DNA of 40,813 bases, taken from NCBI GenBank assembly GCA_945905295.1, contig CAMDPX010000043.1:1-40813 (forward strand), read 5' to 3'. The stretch comes from Planctomyces sp. SH-PL62 (GTDB taxonomy: Bacteria; Planctomycetota; Planctomycetia; Planctomycetales; Planctomycetaceae). This document shows positions 19,518 to 39,546 of this stretch, piece by piece (position 1 is the first letter of the stretch; the number at the start of each line of letters is the position of its first letter). The notes under the pieces were generated by a model, which was not told the origin of the DNA, did no database searches, and worked only from the letters and a program-made list of their open reading frames with translations. The position numbers and the translations under genes were made by a program.

Positions 19518-20972
<1,455 letters not shown>

Positions 20973-21010
20973 GTTGAATTTCGATGGAGAGAGGGCCATA
21001 AACAGATCAG

Positions 21011-21787
21011 TCATTTCGCCGATGCCTTCAACGACTGACGAACCCAGGTTCGTTCGGCGGGACGCAATTTCGGCACGACGTCGGTCGTGTAATCCAGCGA
21101 GTAGCGATAGCCTGCTCGTTCGTAGGTTTCGTTGAACGCGAGCTGCAATTCCAATTTCACGTCGGCATCGCCCGGAGACAGCGGAATCGGGATCTTCGGC
21201 AGCGGATGATTCAACGGCCAGGCGTAGACTTGAGCCTTCATCCGCCGAGTCCCCTTGCAGATGAACACGAAATAGTCGCCGCGCGGCAACGGTTCGACCG
21301 TTGGCAGCCGCGAGCCGCCTCGCAACAAGTCGAGTTCGACCACGTTGATTGCCGATTGCAGGTACGCATCCCGCTTCTCTAAGTAGGCAGATCGCCCGCC
21401 GCGCTGATTCTTGTTCCAGGGAGACAGCAACTCGATCACCGTCACAATTTCTCGGTTGTGCATCGACCGCACCGTCAGGTACGGCCGCTTGACCACCTGC
21501 GGCTTCGGCAAGGTACGAGTCACCGGTTTGACGGCCACCGCCACGCCTCCATCCGGTCCACCAGTCCATTCTCCACTTTCCTCGACTGACAAATCCGGGA
21601 CCACAATGCGATCAACGTCACCCTCGTCACCTCGCACCAAGGTGACGGACTTCTCGACGTTCACGAAGTAGTCGGGCAGAAGTGTTGGGACCAATCGTTC
21701 GCGAAGCCGAATGATGAAGTCCGTGTGAAAATCGGACCAACACTGCCCCTCGATAAACGGGTCCATTCCTGGAAACGGCGATGTCAT
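21011..21787 (-). CDS. DUF4058 family protein
   Basis: 258 aa, close to full length. It starts with the family hallmark SPFPGMDPFIEGQCWSDFHT and has the conserved VIELLSPWNK motif, the YLEKRDAYLQSAINVVELDLLRGG region and an RGDYFVFICKG segment. The restriction-endonuclease-like core (VIELLSP..NK, E and K residues) is suggestive, but catalysis is unproven. No signal peptide is present, so it is cytoplasmic. It is 33 nt after the G8 gene; its stop overlaps a possible DUF1501 start by 4 nt. Function unknown. Confidence 0.88.
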   Translation of the reverse strand: MTSPFPGMDPFIEGQCWSDFHTDFIIRLRERLVPTLLPDYFVNVEKSVTLVRGDEGDVDRIVVPDLSVEESGEWTGGPDGGVAVAVKPVTRTLPKPQVVKRPYLTVRSMHNREIVTVIELLSPWNKNQRGGRSAYLEKRDAYLQSAINVVELDLLRGGSRLPTVEPLPRGDYFVFICKGTRRMKAQVYAWPLNHPLPKIPIPLSPGDADVKLELQLAFNETYERAGYRYSLDYTTDVVPKLRPAERTWVRQSLKASAK

Positions 21788-21820: not shown

Positions 21821-24151
21821 CTACTGGCCCGCGATCCGATGCGGCAGACGTTCCGCGTTGCCGGCGGAGTCCGTGGCGGAACTGACTAACTCTTTGACAC
21901 TGAGGTCTCCCGTTTTCAAGACGACTTCCCATTCCGCAAAGTTGTCGCGCACCGATTTCGCCCTCGCGCCGTTGACGGTGACTTGCTTGATCTCGCCGTT
22001 GTCCTCTGCCCAGCCGCGAATCAGCCAGCCGTCGCTCGTGCGAGTGACCGAAGTGATTATCGTGGATGGCGGCAGGTCATCGATCGGGTCGAGCAGTTGC
22101 GGGAAGAGGATGTCGCGAACTTCGAGGACTCGCGATTCATCACCGGTCAGCGGCGATTCGGACTTGTAGGTGGCTGGCTCGGTCTTCACTTCGCCGGACT
22201 TGGCGCTGACGACTCGCGCGTGGCGGCCGGAGCCGTAGAAGTCGTGCAGGATGACTGGCACGCTGGTCGGCGTCTTCGGTTGCGGACGTGGGCCGCCGCC
22301 GAGGTTCACCAACGCTCGGCGGTTGTTGTCTTGGCGGTTGATGACCTGCACGTTGCGAATGTGCGTCTCGGCTGAACCGGTCGGGTTGTGATCGGTGATC
22401 TGGATCAGTGGCATCGAACTGTTGTGGTGGCCGGAGAACGTCAGGCCGTCGACCGTGAGGTTGCCGTATTGAATGCTGTCGTCATCGTGGCCACGATTGA
22501 ACGGCTCGGCGTCGCCATGTTTGGGCGACTGCGTGATCGACATGTTGCGATAGACGTGGCGATCGAAGTTCGGGTGATAGACGCCGTAGATCGAGTTGTA
22601 GATTTTCATTCCCTCGACCAGCACACACGGAGCCTGCACGCGGAAGGCGTAATGGATCTCCCAGATCTTGGTGTTCCGCAGCACGAACGGGTGCTTCGCG
22701 TCCGGGCCGACGCGGTTGACTCCCTGGCCGAGATTGACGCCGTACAGGCCGTCGCAGTGAGCTTCGTTGTCCTCGAACCGCACGAACGGCAGCGTGCGGA
22801 TGTCGGTGGGCTTCGATTCGCCGCTCGCGTCTTGCACCGGCAGCGTCAGCTTGAGGGCGCTCGTCTCGGTCGCTTCGAAGAAATAGCCGTAGTGATTGTT
22901 TTCGCAGCTCACGTTTCGCGTGAACGTGTTGAGGCTGTTGGCCCACCAGAAGCCGGCTCCGTCGTTTTGATCGAACGGCAGCACTTGTTTCGGCAGCTTC
23001 TTGCCGTCCATCGCCTGCACGGCGAGATTGCGGTCGAGAATGTTCTGCACCTCGGTCCCGTCTTCCATAAAGTAACCGTGGCCGATGCTGCGGTAGCCGA
23101 CGCAATCGCGAACGACGAGATAGTTCGTGCCGTGAATCGTCAGCCAGCGGTTGTGGCTGTTGTGAATCGACGCTCCGATGACCGAACTGCCGCGCATCGT
23201 GTTGCCGACCAAATGAAAGTGCAGCGCGTATCGGCCGAGCGTGTCCTTCTTGCCGAGATGCCGGAACTCGGCATAGCTGATCGAGCCAGCGGAACCCTTG
23301 TGATACATCGTGTGCCCGCGAATGCCCTCAGGATTCGCCGATTCAACAATCACGTTGCGACTGAGGTTCGCGACCTCGCCACGAAATTCGCCTTCGCCGA
23401 GATGCTCACGCATCAGCGGTTCATTCAGCAGAAGTTTTCCGCCAGCGCCGTCGATCGCCGTCACGGTCCGCTCTTCCGTTTCGAGTTTGTCAGTCCCCTG
23501 CCCGTTGTCACGCCCAAGATGCGTGGCCGTGATGATGACTCGATCGCCGATTCGCCAGCCGGTCACCGATTCAGACAGCGTGACAGCAGCGTCTCCCTTC
23601 TTCGAGGTCGCACCGAGTTTCACCCACGTCCGGCTGAGCGGCGCTCCATGAAACTCCATCCGCCCGCCGCAGCAGACAATCGCCGGACAGGACTGCTTGT
23701 CTTGCCCCTCAAACGGCACGAGCCGAATCAGCGCCGTGTGCTTGGCATCAATCGGCTTCTCCGGAGTGCCAACCAATAACGCCGGTCGTACCGCACCGGC
23801 CGGCAAGTCTTCGATGTGAGCGTCGCAATCAAAGCCCTCTTCGGTGGGCTCGTCGCCGAATTCGATCTTCAGCACGCCGACATCCAGCCGAGTGTCCTTG
23901 TTCGCCGCGAACGTCAGTGTCCCCGCGACGCACACTGCTCGGATCGGCGTCTCCGACTTCACGTCGTAAACGACCACATGCCCCGGCCGCACATGCACGC
24001 GAGCGCCCGCTTCCGGGACTTTGCCACCTTCCCAAGTCGCGGCGGCCGACCACGCGCCGCTGCCGGCGGAACGCGTCCACGTCTCGGCTGCGTCTGCCGA
24101 AATACCAATCACGAGCACAGCGACGAGCATCAGACCGGGGACAAGTTTCAT
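21821..24151 (-). CDS. exported G8-domain parallel beta-helix protein (CEMIP/TMEM2-like)
   Basis: 776 aa from the ATG at 24151, which begins a good signal peptide (MKLVPGLMLVAVLVIGISADA). Residues ~25-160 form a G8 domain (WSAAATWEGGKVPEAGARVH, then GHVVVYD). Residues ~200-640 form a right-handed beta-helix with CEMIP-like motifs: RYALHFHLVGN at about 308-317, RWLTIHGTN at about 335-343 and GHGYFMEDGTE at about 357-367. A C-terminal Ig-like domain follows (SVTRTSDGWLIRGWAEDN). Animal CEMIP and TMEM2 degrade or bind hyaluronan, so an extracellular polysaccharide is the likeliest target; activity here is inference. It lies in a run of exported proteins, 66 nt after the unknown 180-aa gene. Confidence 0.88.
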   Translation of the reverse strand: MKLVPGLMLVAVLVIGISADAAETWTRSAGSGAWSAAATWEGGKVPEAGARVHVRPGHVVVYDVKSETPIRAVCVAGTLTFAANKDTRLDVGVLKIEFGDEPTEEGFDCDAHIEDLPAGAVRPALLVGTPEKPIDAKHTALIRLVPFEGQDKQSCPAIVCCGGRMEFHGAPLSRTWVKLGATSKKGDAAVTLSESVTGWRIGDRVIITATHLGRDNGQGTDKLETEERTVTAIDGAGGKLLLNEPLMREHLGEGEFRGEVANLSRNVIVESANPEGIRGHTMYHKGSAGSISYAEFRHLGKKDTLGRYALHFHLVGNTMRGSSVIGASIHNSHNRWLTIHGTNYLVVRDCVGYRSIGHGYFMEDGTEVQNILDRNLAVQAMDGKKLPKQVLPFDQNDGAGFWWANSLNTFTRNVSCENNHYGYFFEATETSALKLTLPVQDASGESKPTDIRTLPFVRFEDNEAHCDGLYGVNLGQGVNRVGPDAKHPFVLRNTKIWEIHYAFRVQAPCVLVEGMKIYNSIYGVYHPNFDRHVYRNMSITQSPKHGDAEPFNRGHDDDSIQYGNLTVDGLTFSGHHNSSMPLIQITDHNPTGSAETHIRNVQVINRQDNNRRALVNLGGGPRPQPKTPTSVPVILHDFYGSGRHARVVSAKSGEVKTEPATYKSESPLTGDESRVLEVRDILFPQLLDPIDDLPPSTIITSVTRTSDGWLIRGWAEDNGEIKQVTVNGARAKSVRDNFAEWEVVLKTGDLSVKELVSSATDSAGNAERLPHRIAGQ

Positions 24152-24217: not shown

Positions 24218-24760
24218 CTAACGAATCAACTTCATGGAAATACCGCTCGTGGCAGCCGCAACAGTCTCTGAGATTCTCGCCATCAGTGACTGTGTGGTCT
24301 TGCGGCGAGATTTGTTGTCAAAGATGTATCGGATCTTGGATTCCAAGAATTTCGGAAAGTCATTCGGGGAAAGTTCCGCTTTCAGTTTCTCGCTCAAACG
24401 CAAAAACGCGAGTGCCGCATTGAACGCTCCGACGTGGCACTCAAACCAAGGAACGGTTCCTTGTTTCATCAGGTTGCCCAATGATTGCCGTACTTCATCA
24501 GACGGCATTCCTCGGCCAATCGGCTCAATAAGTTGGTTCAACTGGTCTGTGAGGTTCTTATTTTCGGACGGCCAGACTGCCATCAGAAAACTCGTGTCGA
24601 TTGGATTCGTCATTAACGGGTCATCTTCCAAAATGGGAAACACACCAAATGCGAACAAACGGACTTCGCTCCCGGTTCCTTTCGCGATCCGCAGAAGGTC
24701 ATTGCCCGTGACCGCTGGACGCGGCGAATAAACGACGATTTGATTCGGAGGACTCGCCAT
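24218..24760 (-). CDS. hypothetical protein, 180 aa
   Basis: I do not recognise a family. The protein has no signal peptide or membrane segment. It is mixed alpha/beta, with a long helical region near residues 105-150 (NAALAFLRLSEKLKAEL, then FPKFLESKIRYIF), and ends in a basic tail. The N-terminal part (PNQIVVYSPRPAVTGNDLL) contains no catalytic motif. It starts 16 nt after the PSCyt1/DUF1553 stop and ends 66 nt before the G8 start, so it is probably co-transcribed with exported proteins although itself cytoplasmic. Base composition is slightly more AT-rich than its neighbours. Confidence 0.7.
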   Translation of the reverse strand: MASPPNQIVVYSPRPAVTGNDLLRIAKGTGSEVRLFAFGVFPILEDDPLMTNPIDTSFLMAVWPSENKNLTDQLNQLIEPIGRGMPSDEVRQSLGNLMKQGTVPWFECHVGAFNAALAFLRLSEKLKAELSPNDFPKFLESKIRYIFDNKSRRKTTQSLMARISETVAAATSGISMKLIR

Positions 24761-24776: not shown

Positions 24777-27700
24777 TTACTCGCGTGTCACCACTTCATC
24801 CAGATTCAACAATACGTTCGCCGTCAACGTGTACGCCGCCAACTCGGCAGAGTCGAGCGACGCCCCCGCTTTGCTTTCACCGAGCACAATCAGTTGCTGA
24901 GCCGCACCAGCATCCTGTCGAAAGCGAGCGAGATCGTCGTTCAAGCCGCCAACAAGCACCGCCAATTCCTCGTCCGTCGGCGAACGTGACGTCACCCAGC
25001 GGAAGGCAAATCGGAGGCGCGACTCCGGCGTCGCGCCGCCGTCGGTCAGCATCCGCTCGGCCAGCTTTCGAGCGGCTTCGACGTAGGTGATCTCGTTGAG
25101 CAGCGTCAGCGCTTGCAGCGGCGTATTGGTGCGAGAGCGTTTGACGGTGCAGATCTCACGGCTGGGAGCATCAAACAGCAACATCGCTGGCGGCGCAGCC
25201 GTTCGTTTCCAAATCGTGTAGAGCGTGCGGCGATACAAGCCGTCATTCGTGTCGTGCTTGTAGCCGCGCAAGTCTCCGTAGCGCGAGGTCTCGTCCCACA
25301 CGCCGTCGGGCATGTATGGCCGGACGCTCGGCCCGCCTAGTTTTTCGATGAGCAATCTGCTGGCGAAGAGCGCTTGATCGCGCAGAGCTTCGGCCGAGAG
25401 CCGTACTCGCGGGCCGCGCGAGAGCAGACGGTTGTCCGGATCGTAGGTCAGGCTTTCCTGCCTGACCCGTTGCGCGTTCGACGTCGGTTGTACGTTCGGG
25501 TCAGGTTGGAAAGCCTGACCTACGGAAGACTGCCGATACGTCGCGCTCATCACGATCAGCTTTTGCAGTCGCTTCATGTCCCAGTCGGTCATGAACTCGA
25601 CGGCCAGCCAATCGAGCAAATCCGGATGCGACGGGTACTCGGCTTGCGAGCCGAGGTTTTCGGTCGTCTTCACCAACCCGTTTCCGAAGAAGCGTTCCCA
25701 CGCGCGGTTGACCCACACGCGAGCGGTCAGCGGGTTCGTTGGTGAGACGATCCACTTGGCAAGGTCGAGACGGTTCATCAGCCGGGGGGCGCTAGCCCCG
25801 GTTGAATCGTTCTGAACCGGGGCTAGCGCCCTGCGGCTGATCGCTTTTTCGTCGATGAGTGCGGCCGGCAACGCCGCTGTGACTTTCTCACCCCGTTTGT
25901 CGTACTCGCCGCGAATCAGAATGAACGCCTCGCGCGGCGGTCCTTCTTTCATGATCATGACGTTGGGCGTCTTCGCAACGAGATCGTCGCGCGACTTCTT
26001 GGCCGACGCGACGGCGTGCTCCGCTTGCTTGAGCGGGCTATCGACGTTCGCTCTGAAAAACTTTTCGAGCTCCGCTTTCTGTTCCGGCGAGCGTTTGTCG
26101 GCGGCGAGTTCCAGGATTGCCTTGAGCGACTCCGGAAACTTCGCGCCGTCGAGCTTCACAGTGCTCGGCGGCAATGACGTGAATGACAATCGGAAGCGGC
26201 CGATGTTGTGTTGCGTCAGCGCCTCGTGCTTGAGCCGCACGGTCAGCGTCGCGTTCGCCGGCACCGTCAACGGTGATTCCAGCAAGAACATCGCCGAGGT
26301 CGGATCGCGGCGTGTCGGACCATCAACCGCCCAGCCGTTGGACGGGGCATCGTCGAGCACGAGACCGATCTCCCAGCCTTTTTGCGAGTACGTCGCTTCG
26401 GCTCGGACAAACTTCGCGACCAGCGGCGACGGCAGATCCGGCGACGTGATTTCCGCTTCGACGCGAGACAGCACAAAGTTGCCGTTCGAGAATCGGCCGA
26501 GCGATTTCATCGGCAGCGAATCGTCCGGCAGCGTGTCGAGCAACAGGCCGCTGAACTGTCCGGCCGCGATCGGCGCGCTGAGCGTGTAGACGTCATGAGG
26601 CGGATTCGTCCCTGATGCTAGATAGCTTCCGTCCGGTTGCTTGGTCAGCGCCGCTCCGCCCGCAGACTTCACATCGTTCGGTTGCAGTGGAGACCAGACG
26701 GCGACCGGTTTGTCTTTCAGCAACTTCTCACGAAAGTCCGGCTCCCACGCGGTGATCAATTCGGGGAGTCGCTTCGCTTCCTCCGCGACACGAGCATTCG
26801 CGACGACGATCAACTCGTCGAGCCGCTTCAATTCCGCCTCTTGCTCGGCGGTCGGGGCCGAGATGGTCGGCTCGGTGTTCTTCGATTCGCCTTGCAGCGT
26901 GCCGCTCTCGGTGACGTTATTGAAGAACGCGAACATCGAATAGAAATCGCGCTGGCTGATCGGGTCGTATTTGTGATCGTGGCAGCGGCAGCAATTGAAG
27001 GTCAGGCCGAGCCATGTGATCCCGGTTGTCTCGACGCGGTCGATCACCGTTTCGACGCGCCATTCTTCGGCGATCAAACCACCCTCGCCGTTGAGCCGGT
27101 GATTGCGATTGAATCCGGTCGCGACGATTTGCGATTGAGTCGGATTCGGCAACAGGTCTCCGGCGAGTTGCTCGATCGTGAATTGATCGAACGGAATGTT
27201 GTCGTTGAAGGCGTTGATGACCCAGTCTCGCCACGGCCATTGAAAGCGGCTGCTATCGACTTGAAAGCCGTTGCTGTCGGCGTACCGCGCCATGTCGAGC
27301 CACGGCCGAGCCATTTGCTCGCCGTAGCGCGGCGACTTGAGCAAGCGATCGACGACTTTCTCGTAAGCGTTATCCGACGTGTCGGCGAGGAACGCATCGA
27401 CTTCGCTGGGGGTCGGCGGCAGGCCGGTGAGGTCGAGTGTGACTCGGCGGATGAGTGTCGCCTTGCCGGCTTCAGGGGACGGTCGCAGCTTTTCACGCGA
27501 GAGACGATCGCGGATGAAGGAGTCGATGGGATTTGAAATTTGAGATTTCAAATTTGAGATTTCAGATTTCAAATTCGGGACAGCGGGGCGAACCGGCGAA
27601 AGGAATGCCCAGTGGCCTTGGTACTCGGCACCGTCAGCAATCCAGCGTTTGAGCAATTCGATCTGTGCTGGCGAGATCTTCTTTCCGGAGTTGGCAGGGG

Positions 27701-27986
27701 GCATCCGCACGTTGTCGTCGCTCGACAGCAATCGCTTGATCAGTTCGCTCTCGTTCGCCTTGCCGGGGGCGATCGCAATGGCTCCCGATTCGGCCGGCTT
27801 GAACGCGATCTCTTGGACGTCCAGCCGCAGGCCCGCCTTGCGTTGCTTCTCGTCCGCGCCGTGACATTGAAAGCAAGCATCCGCCAGGATCGGCCGGATG
27901 TCGCGGTTGAAGGAGACTGGATCGGCGGCGGGGAGGGCAGCCGTGCAGAGAGCAACGGTGAGAACCGCAGTCAGCAAACGACACAT
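24777..27986 (-). CDS. PSCyt1-DUF1549-DUF1553 exported cytochrome-like protein
   Basis: 1069 aa. The signal peptide is LLTAVLTVALCTAALPAAD. The Planctomycete cytochrome C domain has CFQCH (Cys38, Cys41, His42), a c-type heme site; MPP follows as possible Met ligand region. DUF1549 covers about 150-360 (RRVTLDLTGLPPTPSEVDAF, WLDMARYADSNG) and contains CCRCHDHKYDPI. DUF1553 occupies roughly 700-1060 (LAKWIVSPTNPLTARVWVNR, SPTDEELAVL). Proteins of this type sit in the periplasm beside DUF1501 proteins and are thought to serve polymer degradation or electron transfer; the reaction is unproven. Three repeat elements (27531-27576, 25777-25841, 25443-25523) lie inside the frame. It follows the metalloprotease gene and is co-oriented with it. 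Confidence 0.93.
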   Translation of the reverse strand: MCRLLTAVLTVALCTAALPAADPVSFNRDIRPILADACFQCHGADEKQRKAGLRLDVQEIAFKPAESGAIAIAPGKANESELIKRLLSSDDNVRMPPANSGKKISPAQIELLKRWIADGAEYQGHWAFLSPVRPAVPNLKSEISNLKSQISNPIDSFIRDRLSREKLRPSPEAGKATLIRRVTLDLTGLPPTPSEVDAFLADTSDNAYEKVVDRLLKSPRYGEQMARPWLDMARYADSNGFQVDSSRFQWPWRDWVINAFNDNIPFDQFTIEQLAGDLLPNPTQSQIVATGFNRNHRLNGEGGLIAEEWRVETVIDRVETTGITWLGLTFNCCRCHDHKYDPISQRDFYSMFAFFNNVTESGTLQGESKNTEPTISAPTAEQEAELKRLDELIVVANARVAEEAKRLPELITAWEPDFREKLLKDKPVAVWSPLQPNDVKSAGGAALTKQPDGSYLASGTNPPHDVYTLSAPIAAGQFSGLLLDTLPDDSLPMKSLGRFSNGNFVLSRVEAEITSPDLPSPLVAKFVRAEATYSQKGWEIGLVLDDAPSNGWAVDGPTRRDPTSAMFLLESPLTVPANATLTVRLKHEALTQHNIGRFRLSFTSLPPSTVKLDGAKFPESLKAILELAADKRSPEQKAELEKFFRANVDSPLKQAEHAVASAKKSRDDLVAKTPNVMIMKEGPPREAFILIRGEYDKRGEKVTAALPAALIDEKAISRRALAPVQNDSTGASAPRLMNRLDLAKWIVSPTNPLTARVWVNRAWERFFGNGLVKTTENLGSQAEYPSHPDLLDWLAVEFMTDWDMKRLQKLIVMSATYRQSSVGQAFQPDPNVQPTSNAQRVRQESLTYDPDNRLLSRGPRVRLSAEALRDQALFASRLLIEKLGGPSVRPYMPDGVWDETSRYGDLRGYKHDTNDGLYRRTLYTIWKRTAAPPAMLLFDAPSREICTVKRSRTNTPLQALTLLNEITYVEAARKLAERMLTDGGATPESRLRFAFRWVTSRSPTDEELAVLVGGLNDDLARFRQDAGAAQQLIVLGESKAGASLDSAELAAYTLTANVLLNLDEVVTRE
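25443..25523. repeat. GTAG...CTAC nested palindrome, family C copy 2 (in-CDS)
   Basis: Shares GTAGGTCAGGCTTTCC-type left arm and GCCTGACCTACGGA-type right arm with 17323-17405. It is 81 nt long (27 codons) and lies inside the DUF1553 half of the 24777-27986 gene, encoding a VGQAFQPD-containing insert without a stop. Confidence 0.92.
25777..25841. repeat. GGCGCTAGCC palindrome, family D copy 1 (in-CDS)
   Basis: 65 bp with arms GGGCGCTAGCCCCGGTT / AACCGGGGCTAGCGCCC and outer ATCAGCCG / CGGCTGAT. A near-identical 65-bp copy is at 30791-30855. It is inside the PSCyt1/DUF1553 gene, in frame. Confidence 0.92.
27531..27576. repeat. ATTTCAGATTT tandem simple repeat, copy 2 (in-CDS)
   Basis: An AT-rich run of ATTTGAAATTTGAGATTTC-like units, strongly resembling 14490-14528. 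On the coding strand it specifies NLKSEISNLKSQISN between the PSCyt1 and DUF1549 domains of the 24777-27986 protein. Confidence 0.88.
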
Positions 27987-30718
27987 AATTTTCTCGCGGG
28001 CGGGGAGGAACGATTACTGTGGGAACAGCGTGCTGGAGTCTTTGGCAAAGGATTTCTTGGGGTGAAGTTCTCTTCGTAGCGGACGGAGTTCGAAATGCGA
28101 ATGCCGCCGAAGCGAGCGGCACAGGCGGGCCGGTCGCGCGAGCAGCCGAACTTCCAGGGGGATGACGAGGCTAAGGCAGCGGCCTCGGTGGCTCGGCTGC
28201 CGAGTCGGCCGTCGACGTACATGCTGATCTCACCCTGCTTCTTCACGATCGCGATGTGATGCCACAGTCCGTCGTTGATCGGTGCTCCGGCACCGCTGCC
28301 TCCTTCGCCGCCACCTTTCTTGATGCTCAGGTTCGGTGCTCCGCCATCGACGTGAGCGATGATCGAAGCGTCGCCGACGTTGTGGCACTTCGACAACAGC
28401 GTGCCGCGCGGGGTGCGGGTCGAGACCCAGAACTCGATGGTGAAGTAATCGCCGGGAGAGAAACGATCGGTTCCGGGGATCGTTGCTCCGGCGGCGTTGC
28501 CGTTGGTGGCGACAAACGAGGGGCCGAACATTTTGACGAATCGCTGATCGACCTTTTGGAGAGTCTCGGCCTTGCCGATCTCGGGAGCTTTCGCGATCGC
28601 TTCCTGCCACATCTGGTCGGCGCGGTCGCGGGCGATCGGGCGGATCGGGTCTTTCTCCCGTTCACCCGCCTCGAACCACTCGTCGCCGAGTTGCAGGAGA
28701 TCGCTCGACAGCTTGTCCGTTTTGAGTTCTCGCTGAGCGATCGGTGCCCAAACCTTGTCGTTGGCCTTCGCCAGCATCGGCAGTCCGCGTGCGAGATCCT
28801 GTTTGAAGAAGCAGACAAACTTGCCCCACGCAAGATTCGCGGCGGGATCGTCCGGGCTGTTCTTGAGTGTGTCGCGTGATGGCCGAGCAGCCTCGAAGGC
28901 ATCGCGAATCACGGCCATGCGTTTGCCCGTCGCAAGAGCGTCGTCTTTCAACGGTTTGAAGTTGGGCTTCACCAGTTCTGTGGCGGCCGTTTGCAGAGCT
29001 TTGACGGCAGTCCCGTAGTCCTCGGCCCGTACCGCTTCGTCAGCGAGGTCTTTGTATTTGGCGAGCAGCAGCGTTGCTTCCTCCGCGGTTTTCGCCGGGG
29101 GAGCAGCCGCCAGCGCCGTGATTTTCAGAGGCAAGACATCGACGAAGAACCGGTCGTCGAGTCCTTTGATGGCAATCAAGGCCAGGTCCAACTGACCGGC
29201 TTGAGCGGCGTTGGTCGCGGCTTCGTTCAACAACGCAAATGTCATCGCCGGATCGCCGGCCTTCTCCGCATTTTCGATGAGCGTCCGAGCCAGCGTTCCT
29301 TTCTGTTCGGGCTTCTTGGCTTTGACGTACTCGGATTTGAATTGTTCTTTGACGGCTTTCTTCGCCGTCTCTTGCTGAGCGGCGGTCGGAGCCGGCAGCT
29401 TCTTGGCGGCCGCCTGATAGGCGAACTGGGTGCTCGATTTGTCGATCGGCTTGTCGTCCGATTTCTGCTCGGTGACGAACGGAACCATTCGCGGCAGGAT
29501 CTCCTCATCGCCGTCGAAGAACCGCAATCCGCGAATGACCAAGGTGCGGCTGCTGCCGGCTTGCAGCCGCAGCGACCATTGCTTCGATTCGACCGGCTCG
29601 AAGCGGACCAATTCATCGACCGACTTCAACGGTTGCTCGGCCGCAATCAGTCGTTTGCCGTCGTCGCGAGCTTCCAGACGCATGGCGGTCGCGTTGTGAT
29701 CGATCCCGCTGTGCTGCGAATGAATCGCCAGACCAGAGAGCCGGACGCGCATCGGAAACGTGAACTGCAACTCGGCGAAGCCATCCGGCAGCGGCTTCGA
29801 ATGCCACATGGTGTTGTTGTCGTAGGTGATGCCGGGACCGGCGCTCGGTTTGATTTCCTCGCGAACGATGCTGACAACCTTGCTGCCGACATCCTCGCCG
29901 CCGCTGGTCGTGACGCGCGGATAAAAATCGGGATGCCCCGGCAACTCCATCGGGCCGAGCGGGATGATCCGCTTGGAAATTGTGTACCCGGCCGGCACAT
30001 GCTTCAGCGGATCGAACGTCGTCTTGGGAAAGACGCGGTCGTTGAGTGCGAGTGCTCGGCGGTCTTCGGGAATGAGGATGCCGGGAGTCGCACTGGGCTG
30101 CTTTCCCTTGTTGTGATGCTTTGGGTTGTACGACATCAGCGAGTCGTTCTTCTGCATGTCGTAACCGTAGACATCAACGTGCGGCAGCCCGAATGCGTGT
30201 CCCAATTCGTGCTGGAGCGTGCATTGATAGTGCTCGTTCTGAGTCAGCTCGCCCGACGAGATGTGCAACATCCCGCCGCCGGTGTTCATGCCGCCGTTGA
30301 TCGTCCGCCCGCCACCTTCCGGAAACCGATCCTTCGAGTTCATGAACATGATGCAGAAAACGTACGGGCATTGAAACCGGCTGACTTGGAAGTGACCGAG
30401 CAGTTCGGCAACGAGATCGGGTGCTCCCCGCTCGCGCGCGTTGCGGTAGTACTCGAGCGGTCGCTGTCCCTCGACGACTTCGACGCCCAGCTTGGCGATG
30501 TGAAACGTGTCGCCGAGCAGCTCTTCGTAGCGCTTTTGCGACCACTGAATGTGCTCGATGAAGAGCTGCCGTTGCTCGTCCGTGGGGGACGGCTCCCCTT
30601 TCGGGACGAACGCCACGGGCATCACGCTGACTCGTTCCGGCAGCGAGTAGTCGGCCGCCGACACCGGCACGGCGGAGGCAAACAGCAGAATCAAAAGCAC
30701 GCTCAGAATGCGCATCAT
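27971..30718 (-). CDS. exported metalloprotease with LamG domain; 3' end probably frameshifted
   Basis: 915 aa as it reads. The ATG follows a strong GGGAGGGG. Signal peptide residues 1-21. A zincin motif HELGHAFGLPH (His170, Glu171, His174, His180) and a Met-turn SLMSYN around Met195 indicate a secreted zinc metalloprotease. Middle regions (~290-420) look like carbohydrate-binding or F5/8-type beta-sandwich, then helical repeats. A LamG/concanavalin-like domain lies at ~735-860 (EFWVSTRTPRGTLLSK, WHHIAIVKK, MYVDGRLG). After ENFTP the open frame turns unlike the family; adding one base at the GGGG run 28059-28062 would give KKSFAKDSSTLFPQ and a TAA at 28014-28016, removing a 16-nt overlap with the next gene. 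First gene of the 19.5-30.7 kb cluster. Confidence 0.85.
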   Translation of the reverse strand: MMRILSVLLILLFASAVPVSAADYSLPERVSVMPVAFVPKGEPSPTDEQRQLFIEHIQWSQKRYEELLGDTFHIAKLGVEVVEGQRPLEYYRNARERGAPDLVAELLGHFQVSRFQCPYVFCIMFMNSKDRFPEGGGRTINGGMNTGGGMLHISSGELTQNEHYQCTLQHELGHAFGLPHVDVYGYDMQKNDSLMSYNPKHHNKGKQPSATPGILIPEDRRALALNDRVFPKTTFDPLKHVPAGYTISKRIIPLGPMELPGHPDFYPRVTTSGGEDVGSKVVSIVREEIKPSAGPGITYDNNTMWHSKPLPDGFAELQFTFPMRVRLSGLAIHSQHSGIDHNATAMRLEARDDGKRLIAAEQPLKSVDELVRFEPVESKQWSLRLQAGSSRTLVIRGLRFFDGDEEILPRMVPFVTEQKSDDKPIDKSSTQFAYQAAAKKLPAPTAAQQETAKKAVKEQFKSEYVKAKKPEQKGTLARTLIENAEKAGDPAMTFALLNEAATNAAQAGQLDLALIAIKGLDDRFFVDVLPLKITALAAAPPAKTAEEATLLLAKYKDLADEAVRAEDYGTAVKALQTAATELVKPNFKPLKDDALATGKRMAVIRDAFEAARPSRDTLKNSPDDPAANLAWGKFVCFFKQDLARGLPMLAKANDKVWAPIAQRELKTDKLSSDLLQLGDEWFEAGEREKDPIRPIARDRADQMWQEAIAKAPEIGKAETLQKVDQRFVKMFGPSFVATNGNAAGATIPGTDRFSPGDYFTIEFWVSTRTPRGTLLSKCHNVGDASIIAHVDGGAPNLSIKKGGGEGGSGAGAPINDGLWHHIAIVKKQGEISMYVDGRLGSRATEAAALASSSPWKFGCSRDRPACAARFGGIRISNSVRYEENFTPRNPLPKTPARCSHSNRSSPPARKLCVVC

Positions 30719-37996: not shown

Positions 37997-38623
37997 CTAG
38001 GACTTGAGAGCCGGCGTCGCCAAACGCGAACCGGTCGCTTTGTTGGGATCGGTCACAACCGGTTGCTTCGCGGCCGAACCAAGGGCGATCAAATCGGCAA
38101 GATGCCTCTCGCAGACGGCGAGCAACGCATCGTCTTCCACCACGCCCAGCGATTGGCCATCGAAGTCTTCGGAAAGAAATCCCAAATGGGCCAGCATTTG
38201 GCCAACGCGGCTATCGGGAGACAACTCGCAAATGCGCGCGAGCTTGTCGAGGACCGCTTGCCGAACAACAAACGGTGCTCTCTTGGGAGCCAGCCATGTG
38301 TCCCACGAGTCGCAGTCCAAGATCCGGTCGATCAGAGAATCCAGCAGATCCATGTCTGTGATGCTGTTGAATCGACCGAGGATCACGGCGGACGGTTCGC
38401 CGAATTGCTTTGTGCCCCACTTCAAGAGCGTTTTTTGCAACCGCTCTCTGCCACCTTCTTCAAAACCAGACTTCATCTTCACCGCGATATCAAGCTGCTG
38501 AAAATAGCGCACTTCAAAACGCTCACGGTCCTGCCGATCCACCGGAGGATTCGAACGCTCCCTGAGGAATTCGTCGGCGCGTCGCATCCAATAAGTCTCG
38601 TCATTGACATTGAGGCGACTCAT
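37997..38623 (-). CDS. DUF4351-like companion of an Rpn nuclease
   Basis: 208 aa from the ATG at 38623; earlier in-frame codons to 38779 lie inside the Rpn gene in another frame. The ATGA overlap with the Rpn gene stop indicates translational coupling. The central region (QKTLLKWGTKQFGEPSAV, then LDSLIDRILDCDSWDTWLA) resembles the DUF4351 module found at the C-terminus of many Rpn-like proteins. The remainder is mostly helical and unlike anything I recognise. Its ending LATPALKS is probably disordered. Function unknown; a regulatory or targeting partner of the nuclease is inferred. Confidence 0.72.
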   Translation of the reverse strand: MSRLNVNDETYWMRRADEFLRERSNPPVDRQDRERFEVRYFQQLDIAVKMKSGFEEGGRERLQKTLLKWGTKQFGEPSAVILGRFNSITDMDLLDSLIDRILDCDSWDTWLAPKRAPFVVRQAVLDKLARICELSPDSRVGQMLAHLGFLSEDFDGQSLGVVEDDALLAVCERHLADLIALGSAAKQPVVTDPNKATGSRLATPALKS

Positions 38624-39546
38624 TCTTGGTTCCCATCGAACAGCGAATCCCAAGTCGAGCAGTCCAAGGCACGGTCTCGCAGCGCTTTCAATTGCGATCG
38701 AGTGTTGATGGCCTCCAATCGTGCCCGAATGTTCGCGGGGGGCGGCCCTAGCCGCAGGGCACCAATTTCGACCACCCATTCACGAGCCTCAGAGACTCGA
38801 CCAATTTCAATTCCCTTTTCGATGCCAGTTTCCTCGGCGTCAGCGATGTTCGTCGCTTGGTCGCGGAGAAATCGTTGGCGGGCTTCGTACTGGTGGCGTT
38901 CGAGTGTGTCGTGTGACATTTTCTGAAGTACCTCCGTGGCGAGACGGACTTCCGGGATTTGCAACGCAGCGGGCAATGCGGCCGGGTCGAGTTCTGCTCC
39001 GTGTTGCAGAAAGTAGGTCCAGCGTTCGATGTCGGTCGTCAACTCGGCGGCTGACTTGTGGAACTTCGGCAGTTCAAAAACATGGAGTTGCCAGTGGTCG
39101 CTGAACCGAACTTTGGTCGTCAGGTCCAGCATTTCGTAGAGGCCATGATAGCCAGTCGTCTGCGGGCAAAGCACGTCGTTGATGAAACAAATCACGATCA
39201 CCGGACGCAACAACTTCCACTTTTCACCTTCCACCAACTGCTGCGAGTAATTCTTGGCCAAGTAATACAACAGCCGCTCCGGAAAATACTGATGTCCGAC
39301 CATCTGCATTTCGATCAGGAATTCGCGGCCGCTTTCGTCACGGGCCTTCACGTCCAAAATGATCTGCCGGTCTTCGACGGACTCCTTGTGACTAAACGGG
39401 TTGAGGATTCTGATGCTGACGATCCGCTGTTTCCCTGACAGATTCAGGACCGCGTTCAGTAAGTTCGGCGTGATCGCCAGACACTCTTTGCCGGCGAAGA
39501 CTCGCTTGAAGGCGATGTCCACTTTCGGGTCGATGCCGGTTTCCAT
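38620..39546 (-). CDS. Rpn family recombination-promoting nuclease / PD-(D/E)XK transposase-like
   Basis: 308 aa. It starts METGIDPKVDIAFKRVFAG, typical of Rpn/PDDEXK-family putative transposases (TIGR01784-like). The catalytic core is ILDVKARDESGREFLIEMQM, with D and the E-M-Q motif of the PD-(D/E)XK fold, followed by YFPERLLYYLAKNY. Rpn proteins promote RecA-independent recombination and act as DNA endonucleases in E. coli. The C-terminus (ARLEAINTRSQLKALRDRALDCSTWDSLFDG) is DUF4351-like, echoing the coupled downstream gene. It lies between the intact peroxidase gene and the peroxidase 3' fragment, so it may have helped the patch to arrive. Confidence 0.88.
   Translation of the reverse strand: METGIDPKVDIAFKRVFAGKECLAITPNLLNAVLNLSGKQRIVSIRILNPFSHKESVEDRQIILDVKARDESGREFLIEMQMVGHQYFPERLLYYLAKNYSQQLVEGEKWKLLRPVIVICFINDVLCPQTTGYHGLYEMLDLTTKVRFSDHWQLHVFELPKFHKSAAELTTDIERWTYFLQHGAELDPAALPAALQIPEVRLATEVLQKMSHDTLERHQYEARQRFLRDQATNIADAEETGIEKGIEIGRVSEAREWVVEIGALRLGPPPANIRARLEAINTRSQLKALRDRALDCSTWDSLFDGNQE

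Follow-up and report, generated by a model that had tools for sequence, protein, structure and literature searches.

A lectin-less planctomycete homologue of CEMIP and TMEM2 with a conserved candidate active site in its predicted beta-helix

The gene at 21821..24151 (minus strand; ATG at 24151, stop at 21821) of the window, the whole stretch of 40,813 nucleotides that was analysed, encodes a 776-aa protein that, on sequence comparison and structure prediction, is almost certainly homologous to CEMIP and TMEM2. It is best regarded as a minimal, apparently exported member of the G8/CEMIP beta-helix superfamily. Overall, the reading that we cautiously favour is that of an exported polysaccharide-active enzyme with a candidate site in the middle of the helix. 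A sequence-only reading of this DNA, which left the strand unstated, had pointed to this open reading frame, to a signal peptide, a G8 domain and three motifs, and to a resemblance to the vertebrate proteins; all of these were recovered here, and the resemblance proved to be one of homology.

Both Pfam domains scored above their curated cut-offs. The G8 domain (PF10162; residues 39-179; 23615..24037, minus strand) scored 49.9 bits (E = 3.6e-13; cut-off 22.9), and the CEMIP beta-helix (CEMIP_beta-hel, PF24606; residues 279-467; 22751..23317, minus strand) scored 137 bits (E = 1e-39; cut-off 27.3). He et al. (2006) is reportedly the original G8 paper. A profile search of the genome to which the window belongs (8.6 Mb, 476 contigs) placed the G8 domain identically and gave 1.3e-39 for the beta-helix; it returned one match to each domain, both in this gene. 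The N-terminus (residues 1-22; 24086..24151, minus strand) resembles a signal peptide, judged by eye and by its low pLDDT: the candidate MKLVPGLMLVAVLVIGISADAAE comprises MK, a hydrophobic stretch and ADA/AE, and the MKLV start is also present in the close relative L061. At the other end lies a beta-rich region (residues 690-776; 21824..22084, minus strand), probably a sandwich from the strands of the model, with a weak Ca_tandemer match (E = 0.13). The motifs HFHLVGN, TIHGTN and GHGYFMEDG occupy residues 311-317, 338-343 and 357-365, respectively.

When the single sequence was searched against the PDB with phmmer, the TMEM2 ectodomain (8c6i_A) was matched at 7.6e-21, and the sole other match listed had an E-value of 0.59. 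The TMEM2 and Pfam scores lie well outside what chance would produce. A 24-sequence profile raised the TMEM2 match to 3.3e-34, again as the only significant PDB relative. An AlphaFold2 model was built from a 50-sequence alignment (mean pLDDT 90.5, pTM 0.91), and the comparison with TMEM2 that the sequence-only reading had proposed was carried out on it. TMEM2 ranked first in Foldseek (6.7e-21) and was the best fold match in VIA-align, with a Z of 28.8 over 585 aligned residues (3.6 A, 21% identity). Since TMEM2 was both the sole significant sequence relative in the PDB and the best fold match, homology rather than mere likeness is indicated. CEMIP itself (KIAA1199/HYBID) gave its name to the Pfam beta-helix model whose cut-off the protein exceeded, and the likeness to it is by way of that model. 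In the AlphaFold2 model, the chain is one right-handed parallel beta-helix, with the G8 domain forming its first coils and running continuously into the remainder, as in TMEM2, followed by the C-terminal beta-rich region.

The next fold matches, at Z 17-24, were an alginate epimerase/lyase (8ja4, Z 24.0), phage tailspikes, AlgG, AlgE4, polygalacturonases and PL6 lyases. A small number of non-enzymes, among them PfbA and a pertactin-containing entry, were matched as well. These neighbours have in common the right-handed beta-helix, and function is not implied by this shared fold. Among the best 50 of 53 matches in a viral library (E ≤ 0.001), those with names were mostly phage depolymerases, tail spikes and tail fibres; a search of phage records gave no match.

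TMEM2 (CEMIP2), a human cell-surface protein, shares the G8 domain and CEMIP beta-helix with the 776-aa protein and has in addition a lectin-like insert after the third turn, a domain X, a second lectin-like domain and a membrane anchor, according to the available part of PMC10206443. The bacterial protein is without the insert, and its C-terminal beta-rich region is short. Between the end of its G8 match (residue 179) and the point at which homology to the helix restarts (191) lie 11 residues, where TMEM2 has 171 (chain positions 165 and 337 match the edges of the gap). TMEM2 residue numbers were obtained by adding 82 to the chain position, given the 23-residue vector tag described in the same portion of PMC10206443, and the unpaired Cys554 agrees with this conversion. 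Mutation of R265, D273 or D286 in TMEM2 is reported there to abolish activity (PMC10206443, available part). All three map inside the stretch that is missing here, together with the lectin-like domain that carries them, which rules them out as catalytic residues shared by all members of the family. As that domain is absent, the 776-aa protein is not classed as a CEMIP/TMEM2 hyaluronidase, and any activity on hyaluronan is putative.

Conservation was assessed in an alignment of 142 sequences, consisting of the window protein, 60 and 80 relatives from two sources and the corresponding stretch of TMEM2. Fragments L104 and L157 were excluded from the count, which left 114 close relatives (58-96% identical to the window core) and 24 distant ones (23-35%). 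Ten pairs among the close relatives had identical cores, some contigs being common to both sources, so that 104 distinct cores were represented. H280 (23312..23314, minus strand; TMEM2 H519) was present in all close relatives and in each of the 23 distant relatives with a residue at that position. The Y308-x-x-H311-x-H313 motif (23213..23230, minus strand; TMEM2 Y547, H550, H552) was likewise invariant in the close group, and its residues were kept in 24, 24 and 23 of the 24 distant sequences, respectively. E363, which lies with H358 and D364 in GHGYFMEDG (23057..23083, minus strand; TMEM2 H603, E608, D609), was found in 100% of the close and 23/24 of the distant relatives, and H340 in TIHGTN (23123..23140, minus strand; TMEM2 H585) in 100% and 19/24. 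Expressed as percentages, close to distant conservation was 100/96 for H313 and E363, 100/79 for H340, 100/75 for E367, 100/83 for W402 and 98/76 for R335 (17 distant relatives with a residue there); H358 was kept in just nine of the 24. TMEM2 has the identical residue at all eleven positions (280, 308, 311, 313, 335, 340, 358, 363, 364, 367 and 402; R580, E612 and W666 complete the set in its numbering). All six of H280, Y308, H311, H313, H340 and E363 were present together in TMEM2, in 114/114 close relatives and in 17/24 distant ones, the other seven each missing one.

Plasmid-borne relatives, found by tblastn in ten records that were all inspected, narrowed this set. Residues were counted in ten proteins from nine of the records; the tenth record, H6, was omitted because its gene is split in the annotation. 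H280, Y308, H311, H313, E363 and E367 were retained in 10/10, position 340 was His in five and Gln in five, and R335 was present in four. The six Rhodobacterales plasmid proteins examined all lacked R335, H358 and W402, and five of them lacked H340. Given these losses and those in the distant relatives, the firm core comprises H280, Y-x2-H-x-H and E363. One of the plasmid proteins, WP_068422758 on the SH-PL62 plasmid pPL62-1, is a member of this family (50.3% identity across 64% of the query) and keeps the conserved set except for Ser at 364; its gene context differs from that of the window gene.

DSSP assigned strands to residues 279-283, 310-316, 337-343 and 360-362 of the model, with E363 just after the last. 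Read as successive coils, these strands would stack the conserved side chains, and from the strand spacing and the alternation with hydrophobic residues, H311 and H313 are expected to face outward. The mid-helix patch formed by H280, Y308-x2-H311-x-H313 and E363, which H340 and R335 often join, is the most likely active site; alternatively, the patch may have a structural or metal-binding role.

The plasmid records also supplied a genetic setting. Seven of the ten, all from Rhodobacterales (Salipiger, Rhodobacteraceae S2214, Antarctobacter, three Leisingera and Ruegeria), had glycosyltransferase genes around or beside the relative; they cannot be counted as independent cases, since some are close kin, and clusters of this kind may in any event be common on such plasmids. 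Export or chain-length genes occurred in six of the seven stretches fetched (not Antarctobacter), and sulfotransferase and GH16 genes in six of the seven records (not Ruegeria). The Antarctobacter stretch showed only a lipopolysaccharide biosynthesis protein, and the relative there sits at the edge of the cluster, adjoining a transposase. No exopolysaccharide cluster was present in the remaining three records, from Planctomyces, Croceibacterium and Vitreoscilla. In view of the residue losses in Rhodobacterales, the members with an exopolysaccharide context have a reduced residue set. In the plasmid of Leisingera sp. NJS201 (L215, 11875-18566), two short G8 open reading frames with the same protein accession lie about 3.7 kb apart and are followed by hypothetical and calcium-binding open reading frames; they resemble a split or duplicated single gene among exopolysaccharide genes.

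The Rhodobacterales context supports a putative role in polysaccharide cleavage or binding, which is plausible, and that the protein is a carbohydrate-active enzyme of some kind is fairly probable. Such an enzyme would most likely be exported and act on an acidic, uronate-containing or sulfated extracellular polysaccharide; its natural substrate is probably not hyaluronan but an exopolysaccharide of bacterial or environmental origin. It may cleave or tailor this substrate by Tyr/His acid-base chemistry, like the beta-helix lyases and C5-epimerases, or through a metal bound by three or four His and Glu. Lyase or epimerase chemistry on uronates is a possibility to which we give somewhat less than even weight. 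A bolder version, put forward tentatively, is that the lectin-less core is an endo-acting depolymerase of acidic exopolysaccharides, representing a new lyase or hydrolase family, and that H / Y-x2-H-x-H / E would also be the active site of CEMIP and TMEM2 (TMEM2 H519, Y547, H550, H552, E608). A GH88 enzyme would be expected if unsaturated uronides were made. GH88 was found in 15 of 29 genomes with the family and 23 of 72 without it (one-sided Fisher p = 0.053, uncorrected for genome size or relatedness), and this marginal co-occurrence counts against the degradative-lyase version.

A non-catalytic protein for carbohydrate binding or adhesion, with the beta-helix serving as scaffold and the His/Tyr/Glu patch as a structural or metal site that fixes loops, is the strongest competitor, although we consider it rather unlikely. 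Some of the large distant relatives are adhesin-like (surface or secreted) with RTX repeats (L096), and PfbA and the pertactin-containing entry among the PDB matches are not enzymes. In one study, purified TMEM2 ectodomain lacked hyaluronidase activity (PMC10206443, available part), which favours such a role and counts against any enzyme version. Set against this, the Tyr, the Glu and three His of the patch, on coils read as successive, were near-invariant down to 23-35% identity, a pattern that in our judgement is more typical of catalysis, and the exopolysaccharide and GH16 gene setting suits an enzyme.

The polysaccharide-active enzyme that we favour could also be a C5-epimerase-like one that tailors a self-made exopolysaccharide and does not degrade it, an alternative that we regard as improbable. 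The alginate epimerase/lyase was the second-best fold match, with AlgG and AlgE4 at Z 21, and the Rhodobacterales members lie among biosynthesis genes; no biosynthesis gene was named in the window, where a scan of 22 open reading frames (including the CEMIP-like gene) gave no polysaccharide enzyme or glycosyltransferase above cut-off beyond that gene's own domains. AlgG, AlgE4 and 8ja4, which are mannuronan C5-epimerases or alginate epimerase/lyases, have the right-handed beta-helix in common with the 776-aa protein (Z 21-24) and were absent from its PDB sequence-search matches. The catalytic residues of AlgE are given in the available part of PMC7385640 as Tyr149, Asp152, His154 and Asp178, and Y-x2-H-x-H resembles the Y149-x2-D152-x-H154 spacing of these enzymes; H311 would occupy the position of the Asp, provided that the two motifs are equivalent. 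When a fragment model of residues 298-480 (pLDDT 79.9) was compared using VIA-align, the AlgE4 and AlgG end points disagreed on the register, so that the coil correspondence was not fixed, and the TMEM2 control row was about 19 residues off at its N-terminal end relative to the sequence alignment. For these reasons, the AlgE-like motif is only a lead. AlgG-type relatives were sought with NF038177: there was no match in the own genome, and in 294 genomes of the phylum there were weak matches in 22 and none over the cut-off; four of the matching open reading frames were read and had the appearance of generic beta-helix repeats. The PL6 lyases, which we take to include chondroitinase B, have the beta-helix fold in common with the 776-aa protein at Z 17-19. 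Chondroitinase B is named as the nearest glycosaminoglycan lyase for TMEM2, in which only one of its two Ca-binding Glu residues is conserved (PMC10206443, available part).

A strict hyaluronidase or glycosaminoglycan hydrolase, as reported for CEMIP and TMEM2, is very unlikely despite the homology and the residue set held in common with TMEM2, because the lectin-like domain with R265, D273 and D286 is absent and because the titles of several relatives suggest lakes or groundwater (Erken, LacPavin, Baikal, NC_groundwater), where hyaluronan would not be an obvious substrate.

Both the enzyme status of TMEM2 and CEMIP and the location of their active site are disputed in print, and PMC10206443 (available part) leaves the TMEM2 active site without an assignment. 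Intrinsic activity of TMEM2 was reported by another study (PMC10474455), CEMIP activity is said to require living cells (PMC11764312), and the TMEM2 dispute is itself stated in PMC12254123, in each case in the available part of the source. A lectin-less bacterial homologue offers a smaller, soluble test object for this dispute, and setting it beside TMEM2 reduces the candidate site to some six residues, open to mutation in either protein. Should the bacterial protein prove active, it would represent a novel type of enzyme that cleaves or tailors polysaccharides; its relatives occur in Planctomycetota, in records carrying a Verrucomicrobiota label and, in Rhodobacterales, among exopolysaccharide genes. 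The earlier suggestion of an unrecognised type of enzyme holds in part. The family is recognised by domain models and public records, Pfam having both domains and seven of the ten plasmid records calling the relative a 'G8 domain-containing protein'; these names come without a function, and no bacterial G8/CEMIP protein with a described function was seen among the titles and abstract openings of the open-licence literature.

Within the same family, 29 of 101 genomes had CEMIP_beta-hel, as did 30 of 392 genomes of the phylum sample, 27 of the latter with matches over the cut-off. Of 393 candidates in a scan of named genomes, 350 proved to be relatives. The best 80 of these were retained; most carry the label Planctomycetota and some Verrucomicrobiota, and several of the record titles are doubtful. 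Both domains were found in one of 14 control genomes, that of Deinobacterium chartae. A midpoint-rooted FastTree core tree (97 sequences, 216 columns) placed TMEM2 among distant bacterial groups, away from the clade of the window protein. Its clade with L069-L073, L075, L080, L086, L102, L103 and L108 had a support of 0.965, and the nearest node 0.289.

The upstream neighbours of the gene encode a 180-aa protein without a Pfam family (24218..24760, minus strand) and a PSCyt1/PSCyt2/PSD1 protein (24777..27986, minus strand). Downstream are genes for a DUF4058 protein (21011..21787, minus strand; PF13267, 2.4e-69) and a DUF1501 protein (19518..21569, minus strand; PF07394, 1.2e-158, residues 257-682), whose true start is probably inside the open reading frame. 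The DUF4058 gene lies directly between the CEMIP-like and DUF1501 genes. Among the closest relatives (L110, L112, L113, L130 and others), a PSCyt/PSD1 gene precedes in several, with DUF1501 then following in some. The cluster of exported planctomycetal proteins that the sequence-only reading had described is thus present, but as the own genome has 122 PSD1 and 130 DUF1501 matches, these neighbours are little informative and were given little weight as a clue to function. In another planctomycete subfamily, a DUF1559 pseudopilin gene, a small gene and the CEMIP gene followed each other in nine loci, some of them close kin (L050, L055, L059, L060, L076-L078, L081 and L087); the scan of the small and DUF1559 proteins covered a single pair. 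The annotation of plasmid pPL62-1 has the same order (DUF1559, hypothetical, G8). DUF1559 families are very numerous in planctomycetes.

Two further genes of the window were observed. The 3' end of a gene at 27971-30718 (minus strand) overlaps the start of the PSCyt/PSD1 gene; its 915-aa product has a signal-like start, a metzincin-like HELGHAFGLPH, weak Peptidase_M66/M10 and F5/8 type C matches and a C-terminal Laminin_G_3 domain. At 38620-39546 (minus strand), a PD-(D/E)XK nuclease family transposase is encoded (PF12784, 4.2e-53).
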